Shown piece after piece: positions 14,551-63,076 of a stretch of DNA of 64,000 nucleotides. Where the stretch lies: the NCBI RefSeq assembly GCF_005080685.1, contig NZ_CP039371.1, positions 2,480,001 through 2,544,000 of the forward strand, given 5' to 3'. The DNA is from Pseudomonas putida (lineage in GTDB: Bacteria > Pseudomonadota > Gammaproteobacteria > Pseudomonadales > Pseudomonadaceae). The notes under the pieces are model-generated. The model ran no database searches and had not been told where the DNA came from. It saw nothing but the letters and a program-made list of their open reading frames with translations. How positions within the stretch are numbered: the first letter of the stretch is position 1; each line of letters opens with the position of its first letter. The translations under genes were made by a program, and so were the position numbers.

Positions 14551-14583
14551 GGGGCCAGTCAACGCGCCTGCAGCGCTGGCCCC
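14551..14583 (+). terminator. Hairpin after the small exported protein gene
   Basis: GGGGCCAG (14551-14558) pairs with CTGGCCCC (14576-14583), and the loop can extend the pairing. It begins 10 bp after the stop codon. The T content downstream is modest, so this is a probable rather than certain terminator. The following 246 bp before oprB are unusually pyrimidine- and A/T-rich and show no gene. Confidence 0.5.
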
Positions 14584-14829
14584 ATTGGATTTCTCCCACT
14601 GCATCAATCCCGTTTGGCAACTTCTTTTCCCCCTCCATATCCCATCCCGCACGCCCTCAGTCGTACAAATTCCACAATAATTCCGTGCACGGTCCTCAAG
14701 AAATTTCATTGGACAATGCATTACACTTGCGAATGAGCTAGAAATACCTAGTAACATCTGCTGTTGATTCAAACGTCAGCCTCCTTTTCCTCCTAAATTC
14801 CCATACAAAAAACGAGCGTTAATACTTGC

Positions 14830-40922: not shown

Positions 40923-41002
40923 ATCTGTTCCGACCCCTTCGCGGCGGTTCGGCGCCCCGACCAGCCCACCCCAAGATCCTCACCGTTGCCAAGGTCGCAG
41001 TC

Positions 41003-41857: not shown

Positions 41858-41869
41858 AACAGCCTTGAA

Positions 41870-46545: not shown

Positions 46546-46556
46546 CTTGAGGTTAT
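46542..46556. promoter_or_regulatory. Putative LysR box before the Rieske demethylase gene
   Basis: ATAAC-TTGAG-GTTAT is a perfect 15-bp palindrome with T-N11-A geometry. It overlaps the stop codon of the regulator, about 98 bp before the demethylase ATG, and shares 13 bases with the site at 45423-45435. Confidence 0.5.
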
Positions 46557-46653
46557 GCAGGCGACAAAATTAATGCGTTGACTGAAAAAACAGGGTGCTC
46601 GAATAATCCTCCCGTTCCTGGCGAACTAAGAACAAGAGCCCGTGAGGATTTAA

Positions 46654-47910: not shown

Positions 47911-47915
47911 CGGTG

Positions 47916-49046
47916 ATGGGTATGCTCGAGAACATTGCCAGCCTGCGGGCTGATCAGCGGTTTGCCGACACCGACCATTGGGCAAGTTTCGGCGTCCAGT
48001 GGGCCAGTGGTGAAAGCAAGCGCATCGAATGCCTGAACGTGGTGGAAGAAACCCACGATGTGAAGACCTTCGTCTTCCAGTGCCCCGATTACCCCGCGCT
48101 GGCCTACGAGCCGGGGCAGTTCCTGACCGTGTCGCCGGTCATCGACGGGCAGAGCGTGTCGCGCTGCTACACCTTGTCGTCGACGCCGACCCGGCCATTC
48201 ACCTTTTCCATCACGGTGAAGCGGGTGCCCGGTGGCACGGTGTCCAACTGGCTGCACGACAACCTCAGGGCAGGTAGTGCGCTGGCAGCCTCGGGGCCGG
48301 CGGGTATCTTCACCCCCGTCGCCGCAGCGGCGAAGAAGCTGCTGTACCTCTCGGCAGGCTCCGGCGTCACCCCGCTGATGGCCATGACCCGCGCCGCCGC
48401 CGACCTGCACGCTGATCTGGATATCGTCTTCGTCCACAGTGCGCGTACGCCCAAGGACATCATCTTCCGTGAAGAGCTGGCTCGACTAGAGCGGGCGCTG
48501 CCCAACCTGCGCACGTTGTTCTTCTGCGAAGGGCTGGGCGACGAGCCGGATTGGCAAGGCCCGCTTGGGCGCTTGTCGGCCGATGAGCTGCAGCGTCGGA
48601 TCCCCGATTTCAGGGAGCGCGAGGTATTCACCTGCGGGCCGAAAGGCTACATGGATGCGACCAAGGCGTTGCTGGGCAACAACGGTTTCGATCTGGGCCG
48701 CTATCACCAGGAAAGCTTCGACATCAATGCCGAGGAAGTACTCGAAGCGATGGCCGAGCCGACGCCGGCCGGGCAGGCACAGGACACCTTCACCGTGCGC
48801 CTGGCCAGGTCCGGCAAGGTGTTCAGCATGACGGCTGATCAGACCGTGTTATCGGCCGCCAAGAAGGCCGGCGCAGTGGTGCCGTCCTCGTGCAGCCAAG
48901 GCGTGTGCGGTACCTGCAAGACCGCTGTGCTGGAGGGCACCGTCGAGATGAAACACAACGGCGGCATCCGCCAGCGCGAGATCGACAAGGGGCTGCGGCT
49001 GTTGTGCTGCAGTCGGCCCACCTCGGACCTGGTGGTCGATCTCTGA
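47916..49046 (+). CDS. Ferredoxin-flavin reductase of the Rieske demethylase (GbcB-like)
   Basis: A 376-residue reductase. The flavin domain has SRCYTLSSTP, and the NAD domain has SAGSGVTPLMAM and CGPKGYM. A C-terminal 2Fe-2S ferredoxin has ligands in CSQGVCGTCK and a fourth Cys in RLLCCSRP. It transfers electrons from NADH to the Rieske subunit. The frame is open upstream. GTG at 47913, ATG at 47916 and ATG at 47922 are all possible starts, and 47916 is chosen. It is clearly in one operon with the oxygenase. Confidence 0.88.
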   Translation: MGMLENIASLRADQRFADTDHWASFGVQWASGESKRIECLNVVEETHDVKTFVFQCPDYPALAYEPGQFLTVSPVIDGQSVSRCYTLSSTPTRPFTFSITVKRVPGGTVSNWLHDNLRAGSALAASGPAGIFTPVAAAAKKLLYLSAGSGVTPLMAMTRAAADLHADLDIVFVHSARTPKDIIFREELARLERALPNLRTLFFCEGLGDEPDWQGPLGRLSADELQRRIPDFREREVFTCGPKGYMDATKALLGNNGFDLGRYHQESFDINAEEVLEAMAEPTPAGQAQDTFTVRLARSGKVFSMTADQTVLSAAKKAGAVVPSSCSQGVCGTCKTAVLEGTVEMKHNGGIRQREIDKGLRLLCCSRPTSDLVVDL

Positions 49047-49117
49047 CACCTGACAGCGTCCGGCCCCAAGGCGCTCGGGCGCTTCCCGATCCCTCTGGAA
49101 CGGAGCTTGCGATGTGT

Positions 49118-49138
49118 CGCCAGGCATGTGCCCTGGCG
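49118..49138 (+). terminator. Hairpin between reductase and BCCT genes
   Basis: CGCCAGG and CCTGGCG form a 7-bp stem about 70 bp after the reductase stop, and a second potential stem with a CCCTTTTTTG tract follows near 49165. It may partially separate the BCCT gene from the demethylase genes. Confidence 0.35.
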
Positions 49139-49227
49139 TTTGGCTGGTGCACGGCTTGTGCCAGGTGCCGCCCTTTTTTGTTTGTGTCCCTATCAGCGAA
49201 TACGCCGAGCTGGATCTCCAGCCTTTC

Positions 49228-49238
49228 AAGAATAAGAA
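49228..49238 (+). promoter_or_regulatory. Hfq/Crc-type motif before the BCCT gene
   Basis: AAGAATAAGAA fits AAnAAnAAnAA and overlaps the SD (AAGAAGG) of the transporter gene. This suggests translational control by Hfq/Crc. Confidence 0.35.
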
Positions 49239-49249
49239 GGATATAGCCG

Positions 49250-50878
49250 ATGCGTGCAAAACAGGGCCTGCTCAAGGGCCTCAACCCAACCGTGACCTTG
49301 TGGTCGCTTGCCATCGTCGTGGCCTTCGTCATCTTCTGCGCCTCCTATGGCAACGACGCGACAGGCGTGTTCAAGACCGCCTCGGACGCCATCCTCGACA
49401 ATTTCAAATGGTTCTATATCTCCCTGGTCAGCGGGGTATTGGTGGTGCTGGTGGTCATCGGCACCAGCCGTTATGGCAGCTTGCGCCTGGGCCGCCCCGA
49501 TGAAAAACCAGAATTCAGTTTCGCCGCCTGGATCGCCATGTTGTTCAGCGCCGGCATGGGCGTCGGCTTGATCTTCTGGTCGATGGCCGAACCCGTACTG
49601 CACTACGCGAGCAACCCGTTCACCCCGGGGCTCACCGATGAAGCCGCCTCCATGGCGATGCGCATCACCTTGCTGCATTGGGGCCTGCACCCGTGGTCGA
49701 TCTTCACCATCATTGGCCTGGGGCTGGCGTACTTCGCCTACCGCGAGGGGCTGCCGTTGGCATTGCGGTCGATTCTCTACCCACTGATCGGCAACCGGAT
49801 CTACGGCCCGATCGGCCACACCGTCGACATCGTTGGTACGGTCGTGACTGCCTTCGGCGTGTCGCAGGCACTGGGCATGGGTGTCGAGCAGATCAACATG
49901 GGCCTGCACCAGGTGTTCGGTTTCCCGGTCAGCCTGGGCTTCAAGCTCGCGATCATCGCCGTGGTCACCGTCGTCGCCTCGATCTCGCTGTTGCTCGGAG
50001 TGTCGAAGGGCATGAAACGCATGTGCACGCTGAACATGTGGTTGTCCCTGGGCTTGATGACCGTGGTGCTGGCGCTCGGCCCAAGCCACTACATCATGAA
50101 CCTGCTGTTCGAATCGACCGGCGACTACCTGCAGAACATCGTCGGCATGAGCTTCTGGACCGATGCCCAGGCCGACAGCGGCTGGCAGAAGAGCTGGACC
50201 GCGTTCTACTGGCCGTGGTGGATGACCTGGGGCCCGTTCGTGGGGCTGTTCATTGCCAAGATCTCTCGCGGGCGTACGGTGCGCGAGCTGATCTTCGGCG
50301 CGCTGCTGGTGCCGACCCTGGTGACCATCATCTGGATGTCGGTGTTCGGTGGCACCGCGCTGAAGGATGAGCAACAGGCGCGCAAGGCCTACGCCAGTCT
50401 GCCGGTGGCCGAACAGGCGGCAGCGGGACCATTCACCGGAGGCCCGGTACTGGAGGCGACCCGACGCGAGACCACCACGGCCATGTTCACCTTCCTGGCT
50501 CGCCTGGATGGCCCGACGGTTGGCGGTATTCTCAGCCTGGCGATCTGCCTGCTGCTGGCGGTGCACTTCGTGACCGCAGCGGATGCCGGCACGCAGGTCA
50601 TCTCGACCTTGAACTCATCCGGCGCGATCGACCCGCCGAAATGGAACAGGCTGTTGTGGTGCATTCTGGAAGGGGCGATTGCCGCGAGCCTGATCATCGC
50701 AGGCGGGCTGCTGGCCATTCAGATGGCGAGCATCGTGGTCGGGCTTCCCATCGCCATCTACATGCTGATCACCGCCTACAGCCTGACCCGCAGCCTGTTC
50801 TCCAACGCTGACCTGGTGCCGGCGCCCGCACCGCTCGAGGTCAGGGACCAGGCCTTCATGGAGCGGGTAGGGCAGTAG
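49250..50878 (+). CDS. BCCT-family quaternary ammonium transporter
   Basis: A 542-residue transporter of the betaine/carnitine/choline family with 12 helices. The family motif GMGVGLIFWSMAEPVLHY and the aromatic signature SWTAFYWPWWMTWGPFVGLFIAKISRGRTVRELI are intact. It imports a trimethylammonium or related compound with Na+ or H+. No long osmosensing C-terminal tail is present (it ends FMERVGQ), so a catabolic rather than osmoprotective role is likely. Its 3' end overlaps the converging isochorismatase-type gene by 23 bp. Confidence 0.92.
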   Translation: MRAKQGLLKGLNPTVTLWSLAIVVAFVIFCASYGNDATGVFKTASDAILDNFKWFYISLVSGVLVVLVVIGTSRYGSLRLGRPDEKPEFSFAAWIAMLFSAGMGVGLIFWSMAEPVLHYASNPFTPGLTDEAASMAMRITLLHWGLHPWSIFTIIGLGLAYFAYREGLPLALRSILYPLIGNRIYGPIGHTVDIVGTVVTAFGVSQALGMGVEQINMGLHQVFGFPVSLGFKLAIIAVVTVVASISLLLGVSKGMKRMCTLNMWLSLGLMTVVLALGPSHYIMNLLFESTGDYLQNIVGMSFWTDAQADSGWQKSWTAFYWPWWMTWGPFVGLFIAKISRGRTVRELIFGALLVPTLVTIIWMSVFGGTALKDEQQARKAYASLPVAEQAAAGPFTGGPVLEATRRETTTAMFTFLARLDGPTVGGILSLAICLLLAVHFVTAADAGTQVISTLNSSGAIDPPKWNRLLWCILEGAIAASLIIAGGLLAIQMASIVVGLPIAIYMLITAYSLTRSLFSNADLVPAPAPLEVRDQAFMERVGQ

Positions 50879-51347
50879 ATCCTGCAATCACTTCGGCTGC
50901 GGTAGTCACCTGGCCGAAGTGATGCTTCCACAGGTCAATCCCCAGCTTGCCAGACCGGTCGAGCGACGAACCCATCGTCAGGTCGGTCACCAGGGTCGGA
51001 TTCAGCCCTGCGTCGAACAGCGCGAACCCGGCCGCGAGCACGCAGGTTTCGGTCTGGATGCCGCACACCAGCACCCGCTCGACGTCCAGTTGCCTGATGT
51101 AAGCGAGGGGCTCGGCGGTTTGGCCGTAGCCATGCTTGACGAACACCTGATCCACCTCGACCAGACACTCGTCTTCGCGCGCCGGATGCCAGCCGAGTTG
51201 TCGCTCGAAGGGCGTTACCTGTTCATCGTGCAGCTCTACCGATGCGATCGACGGAATGCTGGCCGACAGCACGCGGATGCCATCCACCAGCCATTCGGGT
51301 GGGCTGAAGGTGGACTGGACATCGACGATGAGCAGGACCTGGCGCAT
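50856..51347 (-). CDS. Isochorismatase-family cysteine hydrolase
   Basis: A 163-residue hydrolase, slightly short for the family (180-210). The catalytic triad is D9 (IVDVQ), K71 (VFVKHGYG) and C102 (GIQTETCVLAAG) with the usual cis-peptide region. Members hydrolyse amides, for example nicotinamide or N-carbamoyl compounds. It converges on the BCCT gene with a 23-bp overlap, so it need not belong to the same pathway. The region behind its start is the long inverted repeat. Confidence 0.8.
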   Translation of the reverse strand: MRQVLLIVDVQSTFSPPEWLVDGIRVLSASIPSIASVELHDEQVTPFERQLGWHPAREDECLVEVDQVFVKHGYGQTAEPLAYIRQLDVERVLVCGIQTETCVLAAGFALFDAGLNPTLVTDLTMGSSLDRSGKLGIDLWKHHFGQVTTAAEVIAGSTALPAP

Positions 51348-51460
51348 GGGGGACTCCAGAGGGGTTCGAGGGCGGCGGAGTATAACGGGTTAGGTGGGTT
51401 GGGCGGGGGATTGTGCGGCGGCGGACGGGTGCATGTCTTGGTTGTTGTGGTGGGGCAGAA

Positions 51461-51681
51461 ATCGAGCGCCGCCCGCGCGGCGCATCGCGACGCAAGGCCG
51501 CTCCCACATTTGTTGCAACGTGCCACTGTCTGTCAGGCCATGGTTGTTCGCCTTTGGGGGCAACACAGATCTCGCCCCCGGTCCCACCAGGCTGGCAACC
51601 ATGGTCTATCAGACATAATTGGCCCGAAACAGATGTGGGAGCGGCCTTGCGTCGCGATGCGCCGCGCGGGCGGCGCTCGAT
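51461..51681. repeat. 221-bp element with perfect 49-bp terminal inverted repeats
   Basis: Positions 51461-51509 and 51633-51681 are exact reverse complements over 49 bp (outer end ATCGAGCGCCGCCCGCGCGG). The 123-bp centre has further partial complementarity (TGTCTGTCAGGCCATGGTTG near 51528 against CAACCATGGTCTATCAGACA near 51596). The whole could fold into a long cruciform. GTGGGAGCGGCCTTGCGTCGCG inside the arms is REP-like. The flanks to 51348 and 51711 show no gene. It may be a MITE-like or REP-derived unit without coding capacity. Confidence 0.85.
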
Positions 51682-51711
51682 CTCCCATACACCACAACTC
51701 TGTAGCCAAAC

Positions 51712-52485
51712 CTACCCGGGATACCGCGTCTGCAACACCACCGCAAGCGCATCCGGCCGCCAGAACTCCTGGTCGAATTCAACCGGCTGTCCCCGCTCGC
51801 CAAAGCTCAGTCGCTCCACATAGAAACTGCTCGACCCGGGCGAAACCTGCAGCGCATCAGCCTGGAAATCGTTCATCGTCTCGGAGTGCATGCACAACTC
51901 GCTGCGCGACTGTATCCGGCCAAAGCGTTCGCGCAACAGGGTGGTCAGCGAGGTATTGAGGTCGGCATCAAGCAACTGTGGGCACCAGTCGCACACCAGC
52001 ACATTGCATTCGAGCAGTACCGGGCGCTGGTCGACCCAGCGCCGCCGCTGCAGATGGAACACCGGCTCCTCCGGGTGTTCCAGGCCCATGCGCTTGGCCA
52101 GCCAGGCGCCTGCCGGGCGGCGTTCGGCATGCAGGCACTCGGTGCGAGGCGTACGCCCCTGGTTGGCGACGTACTCCATGAAACCGACGATGCCGGTCGG
52201 GTCGTAGCGGATGCGTGGCGGGCTGACGTACCAACCGCGGCGGTCCTGGCGATAGATGAGACCGTCGGTTTCCAATAGCTGCAAGGCCTGGCGTAGGGTC
52301 ACGCGGGTACAGCCGAAACGTTCGGCCAGCTCGCGCTCTGCGGGCAACTTGCTGTCGGCGGGCAGGCAGCCCTGGGCCAGGTCGGCGACCAACTGATCTC
52401 GGATACGCAGATAGTGCGCCTGGCTCGCCCGCCAACTGACCTGCGGTTGCGACTCGCTGACGAACGCGGTGCGGAACGGGCTCAT
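51712..52485 (-). CDS. GntR-family regulator, HutC subfamily (UTRA domain)
   Basis: A 257-residue regulator. The winged HTH (about residues 25-90) reads LPAERELAERFGCTRVTLRQALQLLETDGLIYRQDRRGWYVSPPR. A UTRA ligand-binding domain follows from about 110 and ends VEFDQEFWRPDALAVV. It is the last gene of the vitamin-type locus, and its start overlaps the pnuC-like stop as ATGA. HutC-type proteins bind palindromes with GT/AC half-sites, and such a site (TGGTATATACCA) lies at the head of the locus at 59233. The ligand is probably the imported compound or its phosphate. Confidence 0.88.
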   Translation of the reverse strand: MSPFRTAFVSESQPQVSWRASQAHYLRIRDQLVADLAQGCLPADSKLPAERELAERFGCTRVTLRQALQLLETDGLIYRQDRRGWYVSPPRIRYDPTGIVGFMEYVANQGRTPRTECLHAERRPAGAWLAKRMGLEHPEEPVFHLQRRRWVDQRPVLLECNVLVCDWCPQLLDADLNTSLTTLLRERFGRIQSRSELCMHSETMNDFQADALQVSPGSSSFYVERLSFGERGQPVEFDQEFWRPDALAVVLQTRYPG

Positions 52486-53078
52486 GGCAACACCTCGGCG
52501 CCTTGCGGGCGGACGCTTTGCCGGGCCTGCAACTCGCGCTGCCAGGCCAGCAGGCCGTATGCAGCCAGTACCACGAAGCCGGCATACAGGGCCGCGGTCA
52601 GGTTCAGCCCCTTGAACAAAAACAGCCCGACGTAGGCGCTGTCGAGCACGATCCACAAGCCCCAGCTGGCCACGTACTTGCGCGCCGCCCAAAAGCTCGC
52701 GACCAGGCTCAGGGCACTGAGCAGCGCGTCGAGCCAGGGCGCCGAGGCATCGGTATAGCGCTGCATAACGGCGCCCAGCAGCACTGCACCGGCCAGCCCC
52801 AGGGCGAGGCTGACAACGGCCTCGCGCCTGGGCAGGCGCTGCACATGGACCTTGCCGGCCTCGCTGGCGCCCTGGCTCCAGCGCCACCAGCCATAGCCCT
52901 GCAGCACGGCGAACACCAGTTGCAGGAGCATGTCGCAGTACAGCTTCACCTCGAAGAAGATCCACGCATACAACAGCACGGCGATCACGCTCACTGGCCA
53001 GCACCAGCGGATGCGCTGGGTGGTGAGCCAGACGCCGAGCGCATTGAACAGCACGGCGACGATTTCCAACGATGACAT
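52482..53078 (-). CDS. PnuC-family vitamin transporter
   Basis: A 198-residue membrane protein with seven predicted helices. The family's Trp-rich elements are visible: RIRWCWPVSVIAVLLYAWIFF, GYGWWRWSQG and SWGLWIVLDSAYVGLFLFKGLNLTAALY. PnuC proteins move unphosphorylated vitamins by facilitated diffusion: nicotinamide riboside (PnuC), thiamine (PnuT) or riboflavin (PnuX). A cytoplasmic kinase drives net uptake, and a kinase-fold gene lies in the same locus. It follows the e(P4)-type phosphatase gene by 21 bp. I cannot tell which vitamin is carried. Confidence 0.85.
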   Translation of the reverse strand: MSSLEIVAVLFNALGVWLTTQRIRWCWPVSVIAVLLYAWIFFEVKLYCDMLLQLVFAVLQGYGWWRWSQGASEAGKVHVQRLPRREAVVSLALGLAGAVLLGAVMQRYTDASAPWLDALLSALSLVASFWAARKYVASWGLWIVLDSAYVGLFLFKGLNLTAALYAGFVVLAAYGLLAWQRELQARQSVRPQGAEVLP

Positions 53079-53099
53079 GGGCGCCTCCTCGGGCAGGTA

Positions 53100-53933
53100 T
53101 CAGTATTGGGGCTTGAGGGCCTTGTGCTTGAAGGCGCGCTTCTGCGGCTCCGACAATCCGTCGCGGCCTTGGTAAGGCGCGCTGTACCAACTGCCGTAGG
53201 TGGGGTTGGGCAGCAGGAACCAGCGTTCGCCCAGCCACGGCAGATACGGCGCCGCCGCTTGCAGTTGGGCCTGCTGGCTGCCGCGGGTGGCCATGAAGTC
53301 GCCGAAGCTGTCGCCCACCTGCATCAGCACGCGGGCCTGGGTACCGACCCAGTGGCGGCGGCAGGTCTTGTCCGAGCCGCTGGCCTGGCAAGCGCCGACC
53401 GGGGTGCCAGCGGTGAGGATCTGCGCGCGGCTGGCGATGGGGAATCCGGCACGACGCAGGTTTTCCAAGGTGGCCTGTTCCTGGCCTGCTTCACGGTTGG
53501 TCAGGTAGTACGGCGTGACACCACGCCGGGCAACGGCCTGCATGAAAGCCACCGCACCCGGCAAGGCAGGGGCCTGGGCGTGGTCGACCCAGCGGTACCA
53601 GGCAGCGTAGTCGTAGGGGCGGTCGGCAAGGATCGCCCGGGCATTGAGCGGCACGTTGTCCAGCAAGGTCTCGTCGATGTCGACGATCACTGCCGGTGGC
53701 AAGCCTTGCAGGTCACGCGGCGGTTGCGCCAGCGCGTCCCAGCCGGGATCGGCCAATGCCTGCTCCAGTTGCCGCGTGGCGCTGGCGAACACCTGCAGGA
53801 ACAGCGCATCGTGCTCCACCGAGGTCTGGGTCCAGAGCACGGCATCGAGCTGGTCATTGGCAGCCGGTTGCACCTGGCAGCCGGCAAGCAAGGCAGCCGA
53901 CAGGGTGACGACCAGGGAAGCGGATCGGGTCAT
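53100..53933 (-). CDS. Lipoprotein acid phosphatase, class C / e(P4) 5'-nucleotidase type
   Basis: A 277-residue HAD phosphatase anchored as a lipoprotein (lipobox LLAGC, C19). The catalytic D85-x-D87 is in VDIDETLLDN. The family N-terminal motif LWTQTSVEHDALF and the later PYYLTNREAGQE and GDSFGDF blocks are present. In Haemophilus the e(P4) lipoprotein dephosphorylates NMN to nicotinamide riboside for PnuC uptake; relatives act on other phosphomonoesters. Position between the TonB receptor (9 bp) and the PnuC-type permease (21 bp) fits a periplasmic dephosphorylation step before transport. Confidence 0.9.
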   Translation of the reverse strand: MTRSASLVVTLSAALLAGCQVQPAANDQLDAVLWTQTSVEHDALFLQVFASATRQLEQALADPGWDALAQPPRDLQGLPPAVIVDIDETLLDNVPLNARAILADRPYDYAAWYRWVDHAQAPALPGAVAFMQAVARRGVTPYYLTNREAGQEQATLENLRRAGFPIASRAQILTAGTPVGACQASGSDKTCRRHWVGTQARVLMQVGDSFGDFMATRGSQQAQLQAAAPYLPWLGERWFLLPNPTYGSWYSAPYQGRDGLSEPQKRAFKHKALKPQY

Positions 53934-53942
53934 GGCGATACC

Positions 53943-56110
53943 TCAGAAGCTCACGGTGGCGGACAACCTGGCAGTACGCGGCGCGCCCTGGAACAGGTAG
54001 CCATCGCCCATGTACTCACCGGCGTCGCGCCAGTAGCGCTTGTCGAACAGATTGTCCACGGTCAGGCGCAGCACGGTTTCGTAGCCTTCCAGCTTGACGC
54101 TGTAGCGGGCGCCGGCATCGAACACGGTGTAGCCATCGACCTTCACGTTACCGGCCTGGCTCGCATACTTGCTGGCGCTGTAGCGCAGTCCGCCGAGCAG
54201 CGCCAGGCCCTTGATGCCAGGGATGCTGTAGTCGGCGTGCAGGCTCGCGCGGACCTTGGGCACGTTGATCGCCTGGTGCCCTTCGTAGCTGTCGGTGCCG
54301 CTGCCGTCGATGCGGGCGCGGATTGCCGCGGCGCTTGCCGAAACCTGCAACCGCTCGGTCAGCCGACCTGTGGCGGAAAGCTCCAGACCGACGTTTTCCT
54401 GCTTGCCCTGTTGCACGTAGGTAAAGGTGCCGTCGCCATTGGGGCGCGAGTACTGGTAGGCCTTGCTGATGCGAAACAGCGCTGCGCCCAGGCTCAGGCC
54501 CTGCCAGTCACGCTTGGCGCCGACCTCCAGTTGGCGCGATACGGTGGGTGGCAGGATCTCGTCGGCGTTGGTGGTGAACCACGCCGCTTCTCCGCCCAGC
54601 GACAAGCCCTTGCTGTAGCTGGTGTAGAGCGACACGTCCGGGCGCGGCTTGTAGATCAGCGCGACGTTGGGCAGGAACTCCCAGCGCTGGGTATGGCGCG
54701 TGGTATTGCCATCGATGTCGAAGGTCTTCTCGTCCAGGCGCACCTCGCGGCCACCGAGAATCGCCTGCCAATGTTCGCCGTAGCTCAGGCGGTCGGTGAA
54801 GAACAGCCCGTACTGGCGGCTGTCCAGACGCCGGTAGGTATGCCCGAGCGGGACGTCGGCAGGGGCGAAGTCGGGCAAAGGTTGGTAGATGTTGCCCGTG
54901 CCCACCCATTCGTTGACCGAGTCGCGTCGGTCGACGATCCGGCGCATGGCACTGCTGCCGACGGTCAGCTCGTGGCGCAGCGGGCCGGTATCGAAACGGC
55001 CATCGAGGGCTGCCTGGAGTTCGTCGTTGCGACGGGTATCGTCGGGGCTGCGGTAGTCGTAGACATCGTAGTCGCCCTCGGGGCTGAAGTAGTTGGGCAC
55101 GGCCGAGCTGGCGCAGCTTGCCGCGCCATAGCAGCCCCAGGGGAAGGCGCTGTAGTCGTCGATCACCACGCGGCTGCGCGAGGCGCTGAGCTTGCCGACC
55201 CAGTTGTCGTCGAAGCGGTATTCGAAGCGGCTGCCGAGGTTCAGCGAGTCGATCTTCACAGGTTTCGACCAGCTCTGGTCGGCCAACCGGTCCTTGGGGT
55301 CGATGCCACTGGGCACCACGCTGCCGCCGAGCAACTGGTAGCCCGCCACCGAGCGCTGTTCGCGGGTTTGGTACTCGGCGTCCAGTTGCAACAGTGCGGC
55401 ATCGCTGATGTTCCAGTCCACGGCCAGCGAGGCGAAGTCGCGTTTGCCGTCGGCGTTGTCGACGTAGGTGCGAATGTCCTCGTGGGCGAAGTTGGCGCGC
55501 ACGCCCAGGCGCTGCTCGCTGTCGAGCCAGCCACCGAGGTCGGTGGCGATGTAGCGCTCGCCGCTGTCGTTGCTGGCCACGGTGACCGAGCGCACGTTTT
55601 CAGGCCGCTTGGTGACGTAGTTGACCAGCCCACCTGGCTCGGAAACGCCGCTTTGCAAGCCGGACAGCCCCTTGAGCAGTTCGACTTGTTGCTTGTTTTC
55701 CAGCGCTACGTTCTGCTCGCCGCTGATGGTGCTGCCGTTGATCTTGTAGCTGTTGGCCGCGTTCAGGGAAAAACCCCGCACCACGAAGTTCTCGTAGTAA
55801 CCGATGGGGCGTAGCTGTCGCCGGTCGAGGCGTCGTTGCTGAGCACTTCACTGAGCAGCCTGGCCTGGCGATCCTTGAGCAACTGCTCGGTGAACACCGA
55901 TACCGAGGCAGGGGTGTCGAGCAGCGGGGCTTCGCCGAAGCCGCCGACCGATGCGCGTGTGGCCTGGTAGCTGTCGGCCTGTTGGCCGCTGACGGTAATG
56001 GTATCGAGCAGTGTGGTGTTGTCCGCCCACACCACTGCCGGGCTCAATGAAAGGCTCAACAGCCCCAGCGCAAGGCCGTGGCGGTGCTGCAGGATCAGGG
56101 TTACAGCCAT
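53943..56110 (-). pseudogene. TonB-dependent siderophore-receptor-like protein, single-base frameshift
   Basis: The N-terminal frame (start 56110, AGGAG SD) has a signal peptide ending VVWA, a short TonB-box-like LDTITVSGQ and the start of the plug, SVSVFTEQLLKDRQ. It hits a stop near 55763. The second frame resumes YYENFVVRGFSLNAANSYKING and runs through the plug and a 22-strand-type barrel to the terminal SATVSF. One extra base in the GGGG at 55806-55809 joins them as SYAPIGYYENFVVRGF with exactly 722 codons. The family includes ferric-siderophore receptors, but TonB receptors also import vitamins. The gene order suggests it serves this locus. It may be an intact gene with a sequencing error. 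Confidence 0.85.
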
Positions 56111-56222
56111 GAACAGACTCCTGGGCGACCCGTGGCAGGCCGCCGAAATACGGATGAACGTGTGCCTGCGCTGGCGCTTTCGCGTTGCGCCTGAGCGTTG
56201 GAGCAGGCTTCTTTGGGGAACT

Positions 56223-57101
56223 TCAGGTCGGAGCTGCTCCGGTGGTCATTGGCAACGCAGGGTCGGCTGCCCATTCCTGCAGCGAGCCGTCGTACAAGGA
56301 GACGTTCTGGCGCCCCAGCAGAGTTAGGGCCAGGGCCGTGGCGGCGGCAGAAATACCACCGCCGCAATACACAATCAGCGGCTGCTCGCTTTCTACCAGC
56401 GAGGCACCCAGGGCGGTGCTCAGCGCCTCGGGTGGCAGGTAGCGGCCCTGGTCGTCGAACAGCGCACGCGCCGGTCGGTTAAGGCTGCCGGGGATATGGC
56501 CACGACGGGCATAGCGGGTGACCGCGCTGCCGTCGAACAGCCCGGCGGACAACGCGCAGACCAACGTGCCCTGACGTTGCCCGTCGAGTACCGACTGTAC
56601 GTCCTCACGGCTCACCCAATAGCCGGGTTTGGCCACGAGGGAAACCGGCGGGCGTGCCAGCGGTAGTTGCGCATGTTCTCCCCGGTCAAGTGGCAGGCCA
56701 GCCTCGCGCCAGGCTCTGAGCCCGCCGTCGAGCACGCGGGCGGCGACGCCGAAGCTGCGCAGCATCCACCACAGCCGTGCGGCCCAGAAGCCATCGTAGC
56801 GGTCGTACACCACGATGTGCCGGGCTGCGCCGACGCCCAGGCGCGACAGCGCAGCTGCGGCTGCCTCCGGCGTCGGTAGCGCGAAGCTGTAGGGCGCCGT
56901 GGTGTCGGCCAGGTCGCAGGTCAGGTCGGCGTGACGCGCTCCCGGAACATGCCCGGCCAGCCAGGCCGCATGGCCGCTGGTGACACGGTAATCGCCATCG
57001 AACTGCGCGGCGGCCAGTTCGACGCTGGCGTCCAGCACCAGCACGCCCGGTTGTGACAGGGTCTGGTGCAGCGCGGTGGGGGAAATCAGTAGGGCGGGCA
57101 T
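56223..57101 (-). CDS. Two-domain rhodanese-like sulfurtransferase
   Basis: A 292-residue sulfurtransferase with tandem rhodanese domains. The inactive N-terminal domain includes HVPGARHADLTCDL, and the C-terminal domain includes RRGHIPGSLNRP and the active-site loop YCGGGISA with C246. It transfers sulfane sulfur from thiosulfate or mercaptopyruvate to an acceptor. The active loop C-G-G-G-I-S differs from the CGSGVTA-type loop of mercaptopyruvate sulfurtransferases. The start at 57101 has a GAGAGGTG SD; an upstream open frame lacks one. It lies 10 bp after the kinase gene and 112 bp before the TonB receptor. Its sulfur role in this locus is unclear. Confidence 0.85.
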   Translation of the reverse strand: MPALLISPTALHQTLSQPGVLVLDASVELAAAQFDGDYRVTSGHAAWLAGHVPGARHADLTCDLADTTAPYSFALPTPEAAAAALSRLGVGAARHIVVYDRYDGFWAARLWWMLRSFGVAARVLDGGLRAWREAGLPLDRGEHAQLPLARPPVSLVAKPGYWVSREDVQSVLDGQRQGTLVCALSAGLFDGSAVTRYARRGHIPGSLNRPARALFDDQGRYLPPEALSTALGASLVESEQPLIVYCGGGISAAATALALTLLGRQNVSLYDGSLQEWAADPALPMTTGAAPT

Positions 57102-57111
57102 GGGGCACCTC

Positions 57112-58260
57112 TCAGCGCGTACGGGCGAGGCGGTCGAGATGGCCGAGCAGGCGGGTGCCTTCGCTGTCGGCAAACCAGCGGCCATGGCCAATGAAGAAGT
57201 TGTGATAAGCGATGTCGGCGTCGCTGCGCGCGCCGACGATGCCTTGGAAGTAGTCGATCTCACCCAGGGCGAAGTCCACGTGCACCAGCGGCAGCAACGC
57301 CTTGAGCGTGAGCAGGTCAGCCTGGGTCAGCGGGCGCTGGCTGTGGTAACCGGCCAACAGGGCATCGACGGCGTCGAGGTCGGCGCTGGCGCGACCTCCT
57401 TCGTCGAGTTCGAGCCACGGGATGCAATTGCGCTCCAGCGCGGTGGCCAGGTCGTACAGGGCGAAGGTGCGGTCGCTCAGGCCGAAGTCGAGAACGCTCT
57501 GTACCTGGGCCGTGGCGTCGGCGTCGGACCATAGCAGGTTGGACGCGTGCCAGTCGTTGTGGGTCCAGAGCGCGGGCTGGTGTGCCAGCAGCGGCAGCAG
57601 AGAGCGGTGATGGGGCAGGTACAGTTCGCGCAGTGCGCGTTGCCAGTCCTTGTCGGCCAGGTAGTGGGCGAGGGCGGGCTGGTGCCTGAGGCTCTGTTCG
57701 ATGGCCTGCACCGGTGCGCTGGCACCCAGCAGGCGCAGGTTGGAGACCAGTACCTGGGTCTGCCGTGCGGGTGCCGCGTAGCCCTCGGCCGCCTGGTGCA
57801 GGCGCGCCAGGGCTAGGCCTGCGGCGTGGGCATGAGGCAGGCCGAGGAACGGCGTCCAGGACAACGCCTCACGGTACAGGTCCTGGCCTTGGGCAACGGG
57901 CAGGACCTCGTAGGTCCATTCTCCCAGAGCGAGCACGCTGGCCCCATGCTGATCGAACAGCGGGTTGACCACTGGGGCGCCGCGTTGCTTCAGGTACGCC
58001 ACGAAACGGTGCTCTTCCAGCAGCCAGGCCGGTTGGCGCACGCTGCGGTGGTGGCGCTTCACGAACACCGCGCCCCGCGCCGTGCCTACCAGCGCCGCAG
58101 CCGAGAACGGGCGGGGGCTGTGCCACTGCAGTGGGCCTGCAGCGCCGAGCCCAGGATAGTGGCGCAGCACCTGTTCCACATCGTCCTGGCTCAGTGCGGG
58201 CCAGTCGGCTTGCACCGGCTGCAAGCCCATGCCGTGGGCGATACGCGAGGGCGCGCTCAT
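57112..58260 (-). CDS. Aminoglycoside-phosphotransferase-fold small-molecule kinase
   Basis: A 382-residue kinase of the APH/choline kinase/ThiK superfamily. The catalytic loop HNDWHASN is at residues 234-241 (base D236, metal ligand N241), and the metal-binding DFG is at 258-260. An ATP-site Lys is in GAVFVKRHH (K68). Such enzymes phosphorylate small alcohols (choline, homoserine, thiamine, 5-methylthioribose). Its start overlaps the stop of the NMT1-like gene as ATGA. In the context of a PnuC-type carrier it is a good candidate for the trapping kinase. Substrate is not determined. Confidence 0.8.
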   Translation of the reverse strand: MSAPSRIAHGMGLQPVQADWPALSQDDVEQVLRHYPGLGAAGPLQWHSPRPFSAAALVGTARGAVFVKRHHRSVRQPAWLLEEHRFVAYLKQRGAPVVNPLFDQHGASVLALGEWTYEVLPVAQGQDLYREALSWTPFLGLPHAHAAGLALARLHQAAEGYAAPARQTQVLVSNLRLLGASAPVQAIEQSLRHQPALAHYLADKDWQRALRELYLPHHRSLLPLLAHQPALWTHNDWHASNLLWSDADATAQVQSVLDFGLSDRTFALYDLATALERNCIPWLELDEGGRASADLDAVDALLAGYHSQRPLTQADLLTLKALLPLVHVDFALGEIDYFQGIVGARSDADIAYHNFFIGHGRWFADSEGTRLLGHLDRLARTR

Positions 58261-59177
58261 GCTTGCGGCTCCGCCAGATAGTCGTTATGGGTGGCACCGC
58301 GCCAGGCATCGGCATCGGCCAGCACGCCGTGCTCATGCAACCAGTGGGCATAGGGCGCGATCAGTGCTTCGCGTTGCTCGCCCCAGCGTCGCTCGTGCAG
58401 CCAGGTCGGGGCGATGTGCTGCAGCGATTGGCTGAGCAACTGCCGGGGGAAGTAGGGAATCGCCGCCTCGTACGCTTCGAGGGCGCTTTGAGGGTCGTCG
58501 GCCACGGCGCGAAAGCCTCGCTCGGTGACCGCCAGAAAGGTGCGGGCGATGTCGGGATTTTGCTCGAGCCAATGCTCCTGGCCGCCGAGCAGGTAGCTGT
58601 GATAACGCGGCGCGCCGATGTCGTCGACCGGCCACACGACCCGGCGCTCTGGCGCGATGGTGCTGTCCATCAGCGCTTCCCAGGCCCAGTAGCCGCCGAA
58701 GCTGGCATCGGCAACGCCAGCGGCCAGGTCTTCCGGGCGCAGCTCTCGCACCTTGCTGTCGACGATGATGACGGCATCGGGATCGCCGCCGTCCGCTGCT
58801 ACCAGGTGGCGGACCATGGCCAGCCCGCGTGGCGTCGGGTTGAGTGCCAGGCGCTTGCCGGCGAGGTCGCGGGGGCGGCGAATGCCGCTGTCGGTCAGGG
58901 TCTGGATCGATTCCAGGCCGCGTTGGTTGATGGCCGCGACGCCCAGCAAGGGCTGGCCCAGGCTGCGTCGGACCAGCAGGCGATTGCTGGGAAACACGCC
59001 AAGGTCGGCTTGACCCTGGAGCAGGTGCTCCAGGGTGTCGCCGTGGAACGGGTCCGGTACCGAGAGTTGCACCGACAGTCCCGCATCGCGGTACCAGCCG
59101 CGTTCGCGGGCCAGGTAGAACCCGGCCGAATTCGGCCAGGGATGAAAGTATTCCAGCATCACCCGTACAACGGTCAT
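58257..59177 (-). CDS. NMT1/THI5-like protein without signal peptide
   Basis: A 306-residue protein with the periplasmic-binding fold of ThiY and yeast Thi5. It starts directly in the mature fold (VRVMLEYFHPWPNSAGFYLARERGWYRDAGL) and has the usual LQGQADLGVFPSN and LAGKRLALN segments. There is no signal peptide or lipobox, and an in-frame TGA lies shortly upstream of the ATG (GGAG SD), so no leader was missed. It lacks the Cys-rich CCCFC motif and the reactive His of Thi5, so it should not be a Thi5-type suicide HMP-P synthase. A cytoplasmic binding or sensor role, or another enzyme activity, is possible. It heads the kinase-rhodanese-TonB-phosphatase-PnuC-GntR run. Confidence 0.75.
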   Translation of the reverse strand: MTVVRVMLEYFHPWPNSAGFYLARERGWYRDAGLSVQLSVPDPFHGDTLEHLLQGQADLGVFPSNRLLVRRSLGQPLLGVAAINQRGLESIQTLTDSGIRRPRDLAGKRLALNPTPRGLAMVRHLVAADGGDPDAVIIVDSKVRELRPEDLAAGVADASFGGYWAWEALMDSTIAPERRVVWPVDDIGAPRYHSYLLGGQEHWLEQNPDIARTFLAVTERGFRAVADDPQSALEAYEAAIPYFPRQLLSQSLQHIAPTWLHERRWGEQREALIAPYAHWLHEHGVLADADAWRGATHNDYLAEPQA

Positions 59178-59232
59178 CGATCTTGCTCCGTGGTGCCCTG
59201 AGGCTCATGAGCAGATTTAACGGGGAGGGCTC

Positions 59233-59244
59233 TGGTATATACCA
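59233..59244. promoter_or_regulatory. Perfect palindrome TGGTATATACCA, candidate GntR/HutC operator
   Basis: A 12-bp perfect palindrome, 56 bp upstream of the NMT1-like gene ATG, in an A/T-rich 169-bp gap (59178-59346). HutC-subfamily GntR proteins recognise GT-n-TA-n-AC-like palindromes, and GGTATATACC fits. The only UTRA regulator in the window is the last gene of this same locus. Confidence 0.5.
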
Positions 59245-59346
59245 ATATCGATGGGTGCTATTTTTATGCCGCTACAGAATATGAATGGGTCATTTAATTT
59301 CTTTTTGCGGCATCTATGGGCGCGTGGTTGTTCGCGCCTCCCATGG

Positions 59347-60942
59347 CTAGCTGTCGAGCCAGGCCTGCGCCAGGCTGCCGCCGAGGCCTTCGCCGCTGGT
59401 GAACAACTGCCGCACGCGCTTGTCGTAGACGACCGGGTTGACCTGGGTGATCACCCCCAGATCAGGTAGGTCGGCGACCACCTGGCGCTGGAAGTCGGAG
59501 AACAACGCATAGCGCTTCTGCTCGTCGGTCTCGGTCGCGGCGGCTTCGAGCAACGCATCCACCTTCGGGCTGTTGTAGCGCGCACCATTGGAAAACGGCA
59601 CCCCCGGCTGGAAGTTCTTCGACCAGTACAGCCGCTGCACGCCCACTGTCGGGTCGAACAGGTTGCTCATGCCGTTGAGGGTGAAATCGAACGCCCGGTC
59701 GGTGTACACCCGCTTCACGTACGTGGCGAAATCCTGGGTACGCAGGTTGACCTGGATGCCTACCCGCGCCAGCGCCTGCTTCAGGTAGTCGCCGGTGCGC
59801 CGGTACACCTCGCCAGCCGGCAGTGGGTCCAGGGTCAGGCGCAGGCGCACGCCATCGGCACCCTTGGCATAGCCTGCGTCCTCCAGCAGTTGGTTGGCCA
59901 GGGCCACGTCGTAGGCATAGCGCGGCAACTCGGGATCGAAGAAGCGTGTCATGTCCGGGCTGATGGGGCCGGGCAGGGGCTTGCCGTAGCCCAGGCAGAT
60001 GGTCTTGCGGATGAAGTCGTTGTTGATCGCATGGGCAATCGCCTGACGTACCGGCAGCTTCTGCAGGTGCGGGTGTTCGAGGTTGAACTCGATGCGCATG
60101 ATGCCGTTGATATAGGGCTCGCGGCGATCTTCCACGGCCAGGCGCGGGTTGCCTTGCAGCCTGGCGATGTCGGTGAGCGGCACGCCACCGGTGGAAAAAT
60201 GCACTTCACCGGCCTCCAGTGCGGCCACCGTGGCCGCCGAGTCGCCGATGAAACGCACCACGATGCGGTCCAGGTAGGGCCGCGGGGCGTCCCAGTAATG
60301 CGGGTTACGCTCGAGGATCACATGGCTGCCGCGCACCCATTCACGGAACACGAAGGGCCCGGTGCCGATGGGCGCCGTGGCGTTCGGATGGGTTTCAGGT
60401 TTCGCCTGGCCGTACACATGCCTTGCGACGATCGGCGATTCACAGGCCGCCAGGGCGGTGATCAGGTAGGGTGCCGGTTTGCTCAGCGTCAGTTCGACCC
60501 GGTGCGGGTCCAGCGCCTTCACCTCGGTGACATTGGCGAAGGTCGCTCGCCCCCTCGGGTTCGATGCCTTCAGCGTCTGCAGCGAAAACACCACGTCATC
60601 GGCACTGAAGTCCTGGCCGTCATGCCATTTCACGCCCTGGCGCAGGGTGAAGGTGTAGCGCAGGCCATCTGCGCTGATGTCCCAGGCCGTGGCCAGCAAT
60701 GGCTTGGGGTTGAGGTCGTCGTCATAGGTCAGCAGCCCCTCGGTGATTTTGCCGGCGATGTACACCGTAGGGCCGGCGGTGTGGGTCAGGTTGACCAGTA
60801 TCGGCGGCTCGATGGCCACGTGCAGGTTCAGGGTGCCCCCGGCGACCGGGCCACCTTCGGCGAACGACAGGCGCGGCGACAGTTGCAAAAAGGCGGCGGA
60901 TGCTCCGCCATAGGCCAGGAGTTGGCGTCGGGTCAGGCTCAT
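59347..60942 (-). CDS. Opp/Dpp-type ABC substrate-binding protein with Tat-like signal
   Basis: A 531-residue family-5 solute-binding protein. The N-terminus SLTRRQLLAYGGASAAFLQLSP has a twin-arginine (R-R) motif before a hydrophobic stretch, so export may be by Tat. The mature domain shows the family pattern ITEGLLTYDDDLNPKPLLATAWDIS, FTLRQGVKWHDGQDFSADDVVFSL and IGTGPFVFREW. Ligands of the family include peptides, nickel, sugars and heme. It lies 33 bp after the second permease gene. No ATP-binding subunit is present, so the system must borrow one. Confidence 0.88.
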   Translation of the reverse strand: MSLTRRQLLAYGGASAAFLQLSPRLSFAEGGPVAGGTLNLHVAIEPPILVNLTHTAGPTVYIAGKITEGLLTYDDDLNPKPLLATAWDISADGLRYTFTLRQGVKWHDGQDFSADDVVFSLQTLKASNPRGRATFANVTEVKALDPHRVELTLSKPAPYLITALAACESPIVARHVYGQAKPETHPNATAPIGTGPFVFREWVRGSHVILERNPHYWDAPRPYLDRIVVRFIGDSAATVAALEAGEVHFSTGGVPLTDIARLQGNPRLAVEDRREPYINGIMRIEFNLEHPHLQKLPVRQAIAHAINNDFIRKTICLGYGKPLPGPISPDMTRFFDPELPRYAYDVALANQLLEDAGYAKGADGVRLRLTLDPLPAGEVYRRTGDYLKQALARVGIQVNLRTQDFATYVKRVYTDRAFDFTLNGMSNLFDPTVGVQRLYWSKNFQPGVPFSNGARYNSPKVDALLEAAATETDEQKRYALFSDFQRQVVADLPDLGVITQVNPVVYDKRVRQLFTSGEGLGGSLAQAWLDS

Positions 60943-60975
60943 GGGCAAGGTCCGTGGTCGGGGAGGGTGGGGCCG

Positions 60976-61821
60976 TCAAGCGTCGGCCCGGTTAGGAGTG
61001 AAGGCGTCGGTCAGGGCGTCGCCCAGCAGGTTGAAGGCGAGCACGGTGAGGAAGATCGCAAGGCCCGGGATGGCGGTCAGGTACCAGGCGGTACGGATCT
61101 GCTCGCGGCCATTGCCGATCATGCTGCCCCAGCTCACGTGGTTGGGATCGCCCAGGCCCATGAACGACAGTGCCGACTCCATGAGGATGGCCGAGGCGAT
61201 CATGATCGAGGTGGTCACCACCAGGGTCGGCAGGACGTTGGGCAGAATCTCGCGCAGCATGATCCGCCAGTGGCCATAGCCCACGCTGCGCGCTGCCAGC
61301 ACGTATTCACGCTGGCGCAGCGAACGGACCTCGGCGCGTACCAGGCGCGCCACCGTCGGCCACGAGATCAGCGCAATGGCGAACACCACGGTGGGCAGCG
61401 AAGGCTGCACGATGGCCACCAGCGCGACCAGCAGCACGAAGCTGGGCATGGTCTGGAAGATCTCCACCAGGCGTTGTACCGCGTAATCCAGGCGGCCACC
61501 GAAATAGCCGGCCAGCGCGCCGAGCAGCACGCCAGCCAGCACCCCGCATAGCGTGGCCAGGGCGCCGACCTGCAACGAGATGCGCGCACCATGCACCAGC
61601 CCGGCGAGCACGTCGCGACCGAGCATGTCGGTGCCCAGCGGGTAGTGCCAGTCCTGGCCCGGCCAGAGAAACGCCTCGGCCTGCATGTCCAGCGGGTCGC
61701 CGGGAAACAACCAGGGCGCCAGCAGGGCGCTGCCCAGCACGGTCAGCAGGACGATGATGGCGAACAGCGAGAGGGGGGCGCGCAGAGGCGCCCACAAGGC
61801 GATACGGCGGGTCGTGGTCAT
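60976..61821 (-). CDS. DppC/OppC-type ABC permease
   Basis: A 281-residue permease with an N-terminal helix (LSLFAIIVLLTVLGSALLAPWLF), then the family region PLGTDMLGRDVLAGLVHGARISLQVG. The EAA-type loop reads YVLAARSVGYGHWRIMLREILPNVLPTLVV. It pairs with the DppB-type permease encoded just upstream, whose stop overlaps its start (ATGA). The ATG at 61821 is fixed by that overlap although the frame is open much further. Confidence 0.9.
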   Translation of the reverse strand: MTTTRRIALWAPLRAPLSLFAIIVLLTVLGSALLAPWLFPGDPLDMQAEAFLWPGQDWHYPLGTDMLGRDVLAGLVHGARISLQVGALATLCGVLAGVLLGALAGYFGGRLDYAVQRLVEIFQTMPSFVLLVALVAIVQPSLPTVVFAIALISWPTVARLVRAEVRSLRQREYVLAARSVGYGHWRIMLREILPNVLPTLVVTTSIMIASAILMESALSFMGLGDPNHVSWGSMIGNGREQIRTAWYLTAIPGLAIFLTVLAFNLLGDALTDAFTPNRADA

Positions 61822-62807
61822 GTCCGATTCCGGATGCGGGGGTCGAGCCAGGCTTGCAACACGTCCACCAGCAAGTTGGTGACGATTACCAGCAGCGAGG
61901 AAATCAGCAGGATGCCGAGCAGCACGTTGTAGTCGCGGGCCATCACCGCGTCGTAGGCCAGGCGGCCGAGCCCAGGCAGGCTGAACACGGTTTCGATCAC
62001 CACAGCGCCGCCGAGCATGCCGCCCAGGTGCAGGCCGGCCATGGTGGTGATCGGCAGCAGCGCATTGCGCAGCACATGGCGCAGGGTCACGGTCAGTGGT
62101 GCCAGGCCCTTGGCGGTGGCCGTGCGGACGAAGTCCTGGCGGGCCACGTCGATCATCGAGGCGCGGGTCAGGCGCGCATAGATCGCCATGTAGATCAGCG
62201 CCAGCGAGCAGGCCGGCAAGGTCAGGTAGCGAAGGGTGTCGAGCAGTGCCGCCAGCCCATGCAGGTCGCTGCCGATGGTGCCGGCGCCACCTGTGGGCAA
62301 CCAGCCCAGCTTGACCGAGAACACCACGATCAGCATCAGCCCGACCCAGAAACCGGGTAGGGAATAGAACAGTTGCGAGGCGGCCGACAGCAGGCGGTCG
62401 GGCCAACGTCCGCGAAAGCTCGCCATGATCACGCCCAGCGTCACCCCCAACGACAACGCCAGCACCATCGCCAGCCCCATCAGCGCCAGGGTGATACCGA
62501 GGCGTTGGCCAATCAACGCCTCCACCGGGGCGCCATAGCGCGGCGAGTAGCCCAGTTCGAAGTGCGCCAGGTGGCCGAGGTAGGTCCACAGTTGTACCCA
62601 CCAGGGCTGATCCAGGCCAAACTGGCTACGCAGGGCCGCCAGGCTTTCGGCGGTTGCCGAACCGGATTCACCGGCCATTACATCAGCCGCATCCCCTGGG
62701 GCCAATTGCAGCAAAAGAAAGTTGATCAGCAATATTCCAAGCACCGTGGGTACGGTATGTACCAGCGCGCGCAACAACGCCTGGCCGACGTCCATGATCT
62801 GTTTCAT
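61818..62807 (-). CDS. DppB/OppB-type ABC permease
   Basis: A 329-residue permease with about six helices. The DppB traits are visible: GILLINFLLLQLAPGDAAD near the start, LRSQFGLDQPWWVQLWTYLGHLAHFELGYSPRYGAPVEALI, and the EAA loop region DFVRTATAKGLAPLTVTLRHVLRNALLP. The frame opens with TTG at 62822; the ATG at 62807 is chosen, but it has only a weak SD, and ATG 62795 is another option. It leads the permease-permease-binding protein transcript, facing the divergent flavin monooxygenase gene. Confidence 0.88.
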   Translation of the reverse strand: MKQIMDVGQALLRALVHTVPTVLGILLINFLLLQLAPGDAADVMAGESGSATAESLAALRSQFGLDQPWWVQLWTYLGHLAHFELGYSPRYGAPVEALIGQRLGITLALMGLAMVLALSLGVTLGVIMASFRGRWPDRLLSAASQLFYSLPGFWVGLMLIVVFSVKLGWLPTGGAGTIGSDLHGLAALLDTLRYLTLPACSLALIYMAIYARLTRASMIDVARQDFVRTATAKGLAPLTVTLRHVLRNALLPITTMAGLHLGGMLGGAVVIETVFSLPGLGRLAYDAVMARDYNVLLGILLISSLLVIVTNLLVDVLQAWLDPRIRNRT

Positions 62808-62878
62808 TAGTGTGTTCCACAAAAGGCGCAGCTATTTACACGGTTGCCGAAACGCTTTGTCAATGCGCGAAAAATGCA

Positions 62879-62910
62879 TAAGGTTATTCAGTCTATTCTT
62901 TCTAACCTTA
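62879..62910. promoter_or_regulatory. Inverted repeat in the divergent promoter region
   Basis: TAAGGTTA (62879-62886) and TAACCTTA (62903-62910) are perfect inverted 8-mers separated by 16 bp in the 269-bp A/T-rich region between the permease gene and the flavin monooxygenase gene. It is a likely regulator site or a hairpin in a leader. Confidence 0.4.
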
Positions 62911-63076
62911 GATAAAAACGGTCTACCCCGAGGGTGATCGCTTAGTTGACCTGTCGAGTGACTGGCCAGTACTGTCAGCGGCCTGCACTAACCGGTTGAT
63001 AACTTGGAAGATGCAAAGGCGCCTGTTTGGGCGACACTTTATAGGGAATGGTTAGTTGGGGTGGAAGGTGGGATCG

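Follow-up and report, generated by a model that had tools for sequence, protein, structure and literature searches.

In Haemophilus, the e(P4)–PnuC–NadR system brings together an outer phosphatase, a PnuC-family carrier, and a kinase, and ThiK of Escherichia coli is a protein with the APH fold. Salvage of thiamine (vitamin B1) by a TonB-dependent receptor, a PnuT carrier, and a kinase is already known as a kind of system. In Bacteroides, a TonB receptor, PnuT, and Tnr3 serve thiamine under the control of thiamine pyrophosphate (TPP) riboswitches (PMC5613172), and a route from thiamine via ThiK to thiamine monophosphate (TMP), and from TMP via ThiL to TPP, has also been described (PMC9247456). 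Here, we analyze seven consecutive genes on the minus strand, running from 59177 to 51712, in a 64,000-nucleotide stretch of the Pseudomonas putida genome (contig NZ_CP039371.1, positions 2,480,001–2,544,000; hereafter “the window”). Judged from sequence comparisons, these genes are, with a probability of roughly 0.8, an operon for thiamine salvage, with predicted uptake and re-phosphorylation of the vitamin.

The operon resembles the Bacteroides OMthi–PnuT–Tnr3 system in having a TonB receptor, a PnuC-family carrier, and a (predicted) thiamine-phosphorylating enzyme, which in Bacteroides are often encoded in one operon (PMC5613172). The two differ in that Bacteroides uses a TPP riboswitch and the thiamine pyrophosphorylase Tnr3, whereas the window has a UTRA-domain regulator and an APH-fold kinase. 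The window operon also encodes a phosphatase, an NMT1-fold protein, and a rhodanese, none of which is mentioned for Bacteroides in the available text of PMC5613172. The likeness to ThiK–ThiL lies in a kinase that would convert thiamine to TMP, followed by ThiL, which makes TPP; the receptor and the PnuC carrier fall outside that route as outlined in the available text of PMC9247456. Other gammaproteobacterial loci (L086–L092, L094, and L095) likewise combine a TPP riboswitch, a receptor, and a PnuC-family carrier, but their carriers are 24 to 31% identical to that of the window and belong to another clade, and only the receptor of L091 matches the window receptor, at 24%. The Haemophilus system shares the outer phosphatase, carrier, and kinase, but in Pseudomonas the NadR-like kinase lies by a different PnuC. 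In the open-licence PMC literature, we found no description of repressor-type control, of the phosphatase, or of the NMT1–rhodanese pair in such salvage. A riboswitch survey reported fewer than two TPP-regulated genes per genome in Pseudomonadaceae (PMC3766115), which leaves room for a system that does not use a riboswitch; in its available text, Pseudomonadaceae are not listed among the lineages without TPP-regulated transporters.

Results

Conservation and two types of locus

Gene families were assigned from the list of open reading frames (ORFs) by Pfam and NCBIfam searches, which agree with an earlier, sequence-only reading of seven genes on one strand in the window, of the NMT1, APH, rhodanese, TonB receptor, acid phosphatase, PnuC, and GntR-UTRA families. 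That reading also saw several ATGA couplings; there are two such 4-base overlaps, NMT1/APH and PnuC/GntR, but the remaining gaps measure 9 to 112 bases.

A first search of named genomes, with the carrier as the query, yielded 25 loci, some of them NadR-linked. The comparison of window-type (UTRA-type) loci comprised 37 loci, from which the duplicates L131, L134, and L151 had been dropped; kinase-less loci (e.g., L031–L033 and L036) were left out, as were L037 and L042, which are cut before the kinase. Many of the 37 loci come from related species and hence do not represent 37 independent events. Kinase, receptor, and carrier occur together in all 37 UTRA-type loci and in all 11 loci of a second, TPP type, the loci having been chosen for presence of the kinase. 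The linkage of phosphatase, PnuC, and kinase was checked across genomes and proved to be conserved, and the gene order recurs far above chance. The earlier proposal that receptor, phosphatase, PnuC, and kinase salvage a phosphorylated vitamin fits well, but the phosphatase is optional, being present in just 13/37 UTRA-type loci, so that “phosphorylated” may hold for part of the family. NMT1 and the rhodanese are both present in 27 of these loci and both absent from the other 10.

The kinase is patchily distributed in Pseudomonas, where it was found in 13 of 249 genomes (E < 1e-100; window included), and seven further genomes gave weak matches only (E from 9.5e-6 to 2.1e-4). In the xanthomonad family to which genome G221 belongs (149 genomes), kinase orthologues are present in 24 genomes, with 11 TPP-type and 13 window-type loci. 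In the 11 TPP-type genomes, a TPP riboswitch lies 44 to 145 bases beyond the aligned end of the kinase gene, on the same strand, and is followed by a receptor (44–52% identical to that of the window) and a PnuC carrier (43–52%). The receptor frame opens between 13 bases before and 57 bases after the end of the riboswitch (10 loci measured), and the riboswitch of L096 was also matched by the Rfam scan (67.7 bits). The single TPP riboswitch match in the window genome lies in front of thiC.

Thiamine pathway gaps in kinase-carrying genomes

Within the same xanthomonad family, thiC is absent from 6/24 genomes with the kinase versus 5/125 others (Fisher p = 0.0025). Restricting the comparison to genomes with a completeness of 90% or more and a contamination of 5% or less gave 4/22 versus 1/113 (p = 0.0025). 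Both combinations occur in genus g292, where G379 and G435 carry the kinase without thiC, and G409 and G459 carry thiC without the kinase. Searches for thiE and thiL were run on 19 genomes, namely, 18 of the 24 kinase-carrying genomes and the window genome. Among these, thiE (PF02581) was not found in G379, G416, G435, and G442, all of the TPP type, and thiL was found in all 19. The UTRA-type genome G381, the locus of which lacks NMT1 and the rhodanese, has a lone thiE-family match of 42 bits and no TPP riboswitch under strict filters. In G330, which has a window-type locus, thiC is missing and thiE is present.

Without thiC and thiE, the pyrimidine and the thiazole cannot be joined, which entails a need for ready-made thiamine. 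As ThiL requires TMP, and as the thiamine-dependent kinase carriers keep thiL, the APH-fold kinase is the obvious source of TMP. Retention of thiL in genomes without thiC and clear thiE, where the kinase likely makes TMP, thus points to thiamine, not nicotinamide mononucleotide (NMN), as the substrate. The substrate had been left open in the sequence-only reading; the riboswitch linkage and the losses of thiC and thiE favor thiamine. Only G381 connects the pathway-gap argument to a repressor-type locus.

The PnuC carrier

The carrier gene (52482–53078; minus strand, as are all genes of the operon) encodes a 198-residue PnuC-family inner-membrane protein (PF04973, 3.7e-52) that is predicted to carry thiamine, i.e., to have the PnuT role. 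In a tree of the family, the operon carriers group with the riboswitch-linked carriers of the xanthomonads (99/95), and the sister of this group is that of the NadR-linked Pseudomonas PnuC proteins (100/95). The main group of TPP-linked carriers from other gammaproteobacteria falls elsewhere in the tree, and because of this split, thiamine use may have arisen more than once in the PnuC family. Long branches call for care in such a reading; outliers on long branches are L065, which is NadR-adjacent, and the TPP-linked L075, L080, and L081. We also considered the WxxWxxxN/D motif, which is a specificity motif of PnuC proteins. In all groups, the forms with a final D are the most frequent, and the motif therefore gives no separation.

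A NadR-like kinase adjoins the other Pseudomonas PnuC genes in 21/21 rows examined, including the second copy in the window genome. No NadR-like gene is present among the seven genes of the window or beside the operon carriers tested. Orphan PnuC genes of the operon type, 67 to 72% identical to that of the window, were seen in L036/L048 and L049, the other operon genes being absent from the stretch examined.

Kinase, phosphatase, and receptor

APH-fold kinases have a catalytic HxDxxxxN motif and a metal-binding Asp. In the 382-residue kinase of the operon (57112–58260; PF01636, 2e-18), H234, D236, N241, and D258 are invariant in 22/22 aligned sequences, and a structure model of the protein matches APH-family kinases. 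No ThiK model is among its NCBIfam matches, and whether that library includes such a model was not checked. Taken together with the genomic context, this APH-fold protein is likely a thiamine kinase giving TMP.

The phosphatase gene (53100–53933) encodes a 277-residue HAD protein with the motifs IVDIDETLLDN and GDSFGDF and a leader that by eye resembles a lipoprotein-type signal sequence. An e(P4)-type enzyme had been proposed; assignment to the class C, e(P4)-like acid phosphatases is borne out (PF03767, 1.8e-37), but the score for the e(P4) 5′-nucleotidase model TIGR01533 (165.9 bits) is below the cut-off of 216.05. By sequence, the nearest solved structures are the acid phosphatase 2i33 (1.2e-32), followed by 7cle, e(P4) (3et4), and lipoprotein E (3ocy). 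Three further Pseudomonas loci (L031, L032, and L033) have a receptor, phosphatase, and carrier, and no kinase, regulator, NMT1, rhodanese, palindrome, or TPP riboswitch in the stretch examined.

The outer-membrane receptor (53943–56110; PF00593, 1.3e-49; TIGR01783, 392 bits) belongs to the TonB-dependent family, as read earlier, but is not one intact ORF in the window assembly. It is split over two ORFs in different frames (55763–56110 and 53943–55784), with the break in the region 55763–55805. The sequence is one base shorter than in L021, L022, and L034, where the receptor is a single open frame. Given these intact copies in relatives, the window receptor reflects either an assembly or sequencing error or a real frameshift.

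The NMT1-fold protein and the rhodanese

The first gene of the operon (58257–59177) encodes a leaderless NMT1/ThiY-fold protein of 306 residues. Its highest structural scores were obtained with ThiY (3ix1), a thiamin-bound substrate-binding protein (4nmy), and Thi5 (4h65 and 4esx), and its best matches overall are proteins for thiamin, formylaminopyrimidine (FAMP), and hydroxymethylpyrimidine (HMP). While it shares the fold of these proteins, it lacks a signal peptide, a partner from an ATP-binding cassette (ABC) transporter in the operon, and the catalytic residues of Thi5. There is no room for a signal peptide in 19/19 aligned rows, where the longest N-terminal extra is 11 residues (P0043), and no ABC permease or ATPase is encoded among the seven genes. 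Thi5 makes HMP phosphate (HMP-P) using catalytic Lys62 and a CCCFC motif, and its H66 is named in a PDB title. The positions of Lys62 and His66 are occupied by Phe (Ala or Cys in some relatives) and Arg, respectively, and CCCFC is lacking, so a Thi5-type HMP-P synthase was rejected. The protein is approximately 60% identical between Pseudomonas and Paenibacillus, and a search of plasmids gave no match at 1e-30. Leaderless relatives that are 59 to 63% identical (P0063, P0073, P0080, and P0088) are named for Cohnella, Herbidospora, Affinibrenneria, and a Methanobacterium metagenome-assembled genome.

The rhodanese gene (56223–57101) encodes a 292-residue, 3-mercaptopyruvate sulfurtransferase-like protein with two matched stretches (PF00581, 3.6e-26); it scores 156.7 bits against PRK11493, below the cut-off of 250. 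The loop YCGGGIS occurs in 119 of 120 relatives among the matches listed. Kinase and rhodanese are fused in L050 (685 residues, both domains) and in P0317; apparent fusions in G371, G330, and G462 were dismissed because the coordinates place the two genes in different frames. In three loci (L050, L155, and L161), a same-strand gene for a monooxygenase of the NtaA/DmoA family stands between the PnuT and GntR genes. Counting luciferase-like monooxygenase (LLM) genes anywhere in the stretch examined, 11/37 loci have one, compared with 3/37 inside the operon. In L156, the region 11628–14695, between the carrier and a partial GntR match, holds what by eye are an amino-acid-type ABC binding protein and permease, together with an LLM gene.

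The regulator and its candidate operator

The last gene (51712–52485) encodes a 257-residue GntR-family protein with a UTRA domain (PF07702, 1.9e-30; PF00392, 3.5e-19) and is predicted to be a repressor. The earlier assignment to HutC does not hold, as HutC scores just 95.2 bits against 228.8 bits for PhnR (TIGR03337), the best NCBIfam score, which itself is under the cut-off of 296.75. A perfect 12-bp palindrome, TGGTATATACCA, at 59233–59244, 67 bases 5′ of the ATG of the first gene, is a candidate operator. It is the sole match with zero or one mismatch in the window, where shuffled sequences gave an expectation of 0, and the 6.6-Mb genome contains one exact copy and two further sites with one mismatch each. 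The latter sit among ORFs that by eye look unrelated to thiamine, and a wider operator regulon was rejected. A consensus scan for a promoter found none.

All 37 UTRA-type loci have the motif TGGTnTAnACCA at 50 to 101 bases 5′ of the point where the first gene begins in the alignment, and none of the 11 TPP-type loci has it within 260 bases of the kinase; one of the latter, L150, has a single stray palindrome 1.6 kb off. The UTRA regulator was matched in 36/37 and 0/11 loci, respectively; L153 gave no match in the stretch examined, and L156 gave only a partial match, behind other genes. Control of the operon apparently falls to a protein repressor, in place of the RNA switch found in related bacteria. 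In L055, a one-mismatch palindrome, probably there by chance, lies near ORFs that by eye resemble purine/ureide degradation genes.

Neighboring genes

Upstream of the operon, on the same strand, Opp/Nik-type ABC genes occupy 59347–62822 (a binding protein and two permeases). Membership of this transporter in the operon was considered and rejected, an OppA homologue being present in 2/25 loci only (L022, 96%; L035, 27%), with varying flank lengths. The start of an acyl-CoA dehydrogenase/DszC-like ORF, as judged by eye, adjoins the Opp genes on the plus strand (63056–64000), which makes an organosulfur cluster possible. Elsewhere in the window, ORFs with a recurring peptide pattern (40986–41885) suggest a tandem array of short intergenic repeats.

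Discussion

For the window operon, we propose that the TonB receptor would let thiamine, its phosphates, or both through the outer membrane, uptake of the phosphates being probable as well. Because a PnuC-type carrier should accept only the unphosphorylated vitamin, the lipoprotein-type phosphatase would remove phosphate in the periplasm, after which the carrier would take thiamine inward, the APH-fold kinase would trap it as TMP, and the cell’s own ThiL would produce TPP. NMT1 and the rhodanese would form an accessory cytoplasmic pair that binds or acts on thiamine or a relative. The UTRA protein would repress the operon at TGGTATATACCA until relieved by some ligand.

Several observations weigh against thiamine salvage as the function of this operon. 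No TPP riboswitch was found at gathering score in an Rfam scan of window positions 45000–64000 or in 26 other UTRA-type loci (27/37 scanned including the window, with L131, L134, and L151 standing for L043, L038, and L023), and in the TPP-type loci the riboswitch follows the kinase gene and need not control it. The window genome has ThiC, ThiE, and ThiL and should therefore not need the operon for growth, and the window receptor is frameshifted. The comparison of thiC treats related genomes as independent, thiE was searched for only in genomes with the kinase, and two of the four genomes without thiE (G416 and G442) are only 85% complete. G381 is the sole repressor-type genome that lacks thiC and clear thiE, and the searches for pathway genes were confined to thiC, thiE, and thiL. 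The kinase has no close match among solved structures, the top profile match being homoserine kinase (3.9e-05), and the operon carrier is closer to NadR-linked PnuC (45–54% identity) than to other gammaproteobacterial TPP-linked carriers (23–31%).

The last of these points bears on uptake of nicotinamide riboside (NR) or NMN, as by the Haemophilus system, which the e(P4)-type phosphatase and the PnuC family of the carrier would also suit. Since the NadR-like kinase sits by a separate PnuC gene and not by the operon carriers, and since the TPP riboswitches on orthologous loci indicate thiamine, we set this function aside as very improbable. Even less credence is due to uptake of iron–siderophores or phosphonates, suggested by names: the receptor exceeds the siderophore-receptor cut-off of TIGR01783 (392 vs. 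223.5) and the regulator is nearest to PhnR, but it misses the PhnR cut-off, no phosphonate gene is among the seven, and, leaving the UTRA type aside, the closest receptors found come immediately after TPP riboswitches. Scavenging of sulfur from thiamine or a similar sulfur heterocycle, which could account for the rhodanese, for a weak SsuA-family score of NMT1, for the LLM genes in the stretches of 11 loci, and for the ABC genes and LLM gene beside L156, seems improbable too, as neither a kinase nor riboswitch-linked orthologues would be expected of a system that frees sulfur, so few loci have the LLM gene inside the operon, and the losses of thiC and thiE fit vitamin supply.

A stronger contender, which we see as less likely than not, is import of a thiamine derivative or breakdown product (oxidized, ring-opened, sulfur-modified, or a free moiety) in place of plain thiamine. 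Its conversion, before or after phosphorylation, would be the work of NMT1 and the rhodanese, joined in some loci by an LLM monooxygenase. The all-or-none pairing of NMT1 and rhodanese, the single kinase–rhodanese proteins of L050 and P0317, and the NtaA/DmoA-family monooxygenases within three operons are in line with this idea, and the presence of its own regulator hints that the operon answers to a signal that is not TPP. It is countered by the 10 UTRA-type loci without the pair, one of which, that of G381, seems to be depended upon for thiamine itself; moreover, either free moiety by itself would be of no use to cells that lack ThiE. A more specific and rather doubtful proposal makes the NMT1 protein, which has no leader, a cytoplasmic enzyme unlike those described so far. 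Together with the rhodanese, which in some cases is fused to the kinase, it would repair or remodel damaged or sulfur-modified thiamine, and this compound would be what the UTRA protein senses. If so, the extended operon would be a thiamine-repair salvage system added to a core of uptake and kinase.

If salvage of thiamine is indeed the function, the operon would represent a route of thiamine uptake in prototrophic Pseudomonas that a protein repressor controls, and one gene set that switches between riboswitch and repressor control. It would also suggest that PnuC carriers of the thiamine type can arise as near relatives of NR-type ones. Moreover, it points to a family of thiamine kinases that can be put to the test and poses a sharp question, namely, what job a cytoplasmic NMT1-fold protein does together with a sulfurtransferase.

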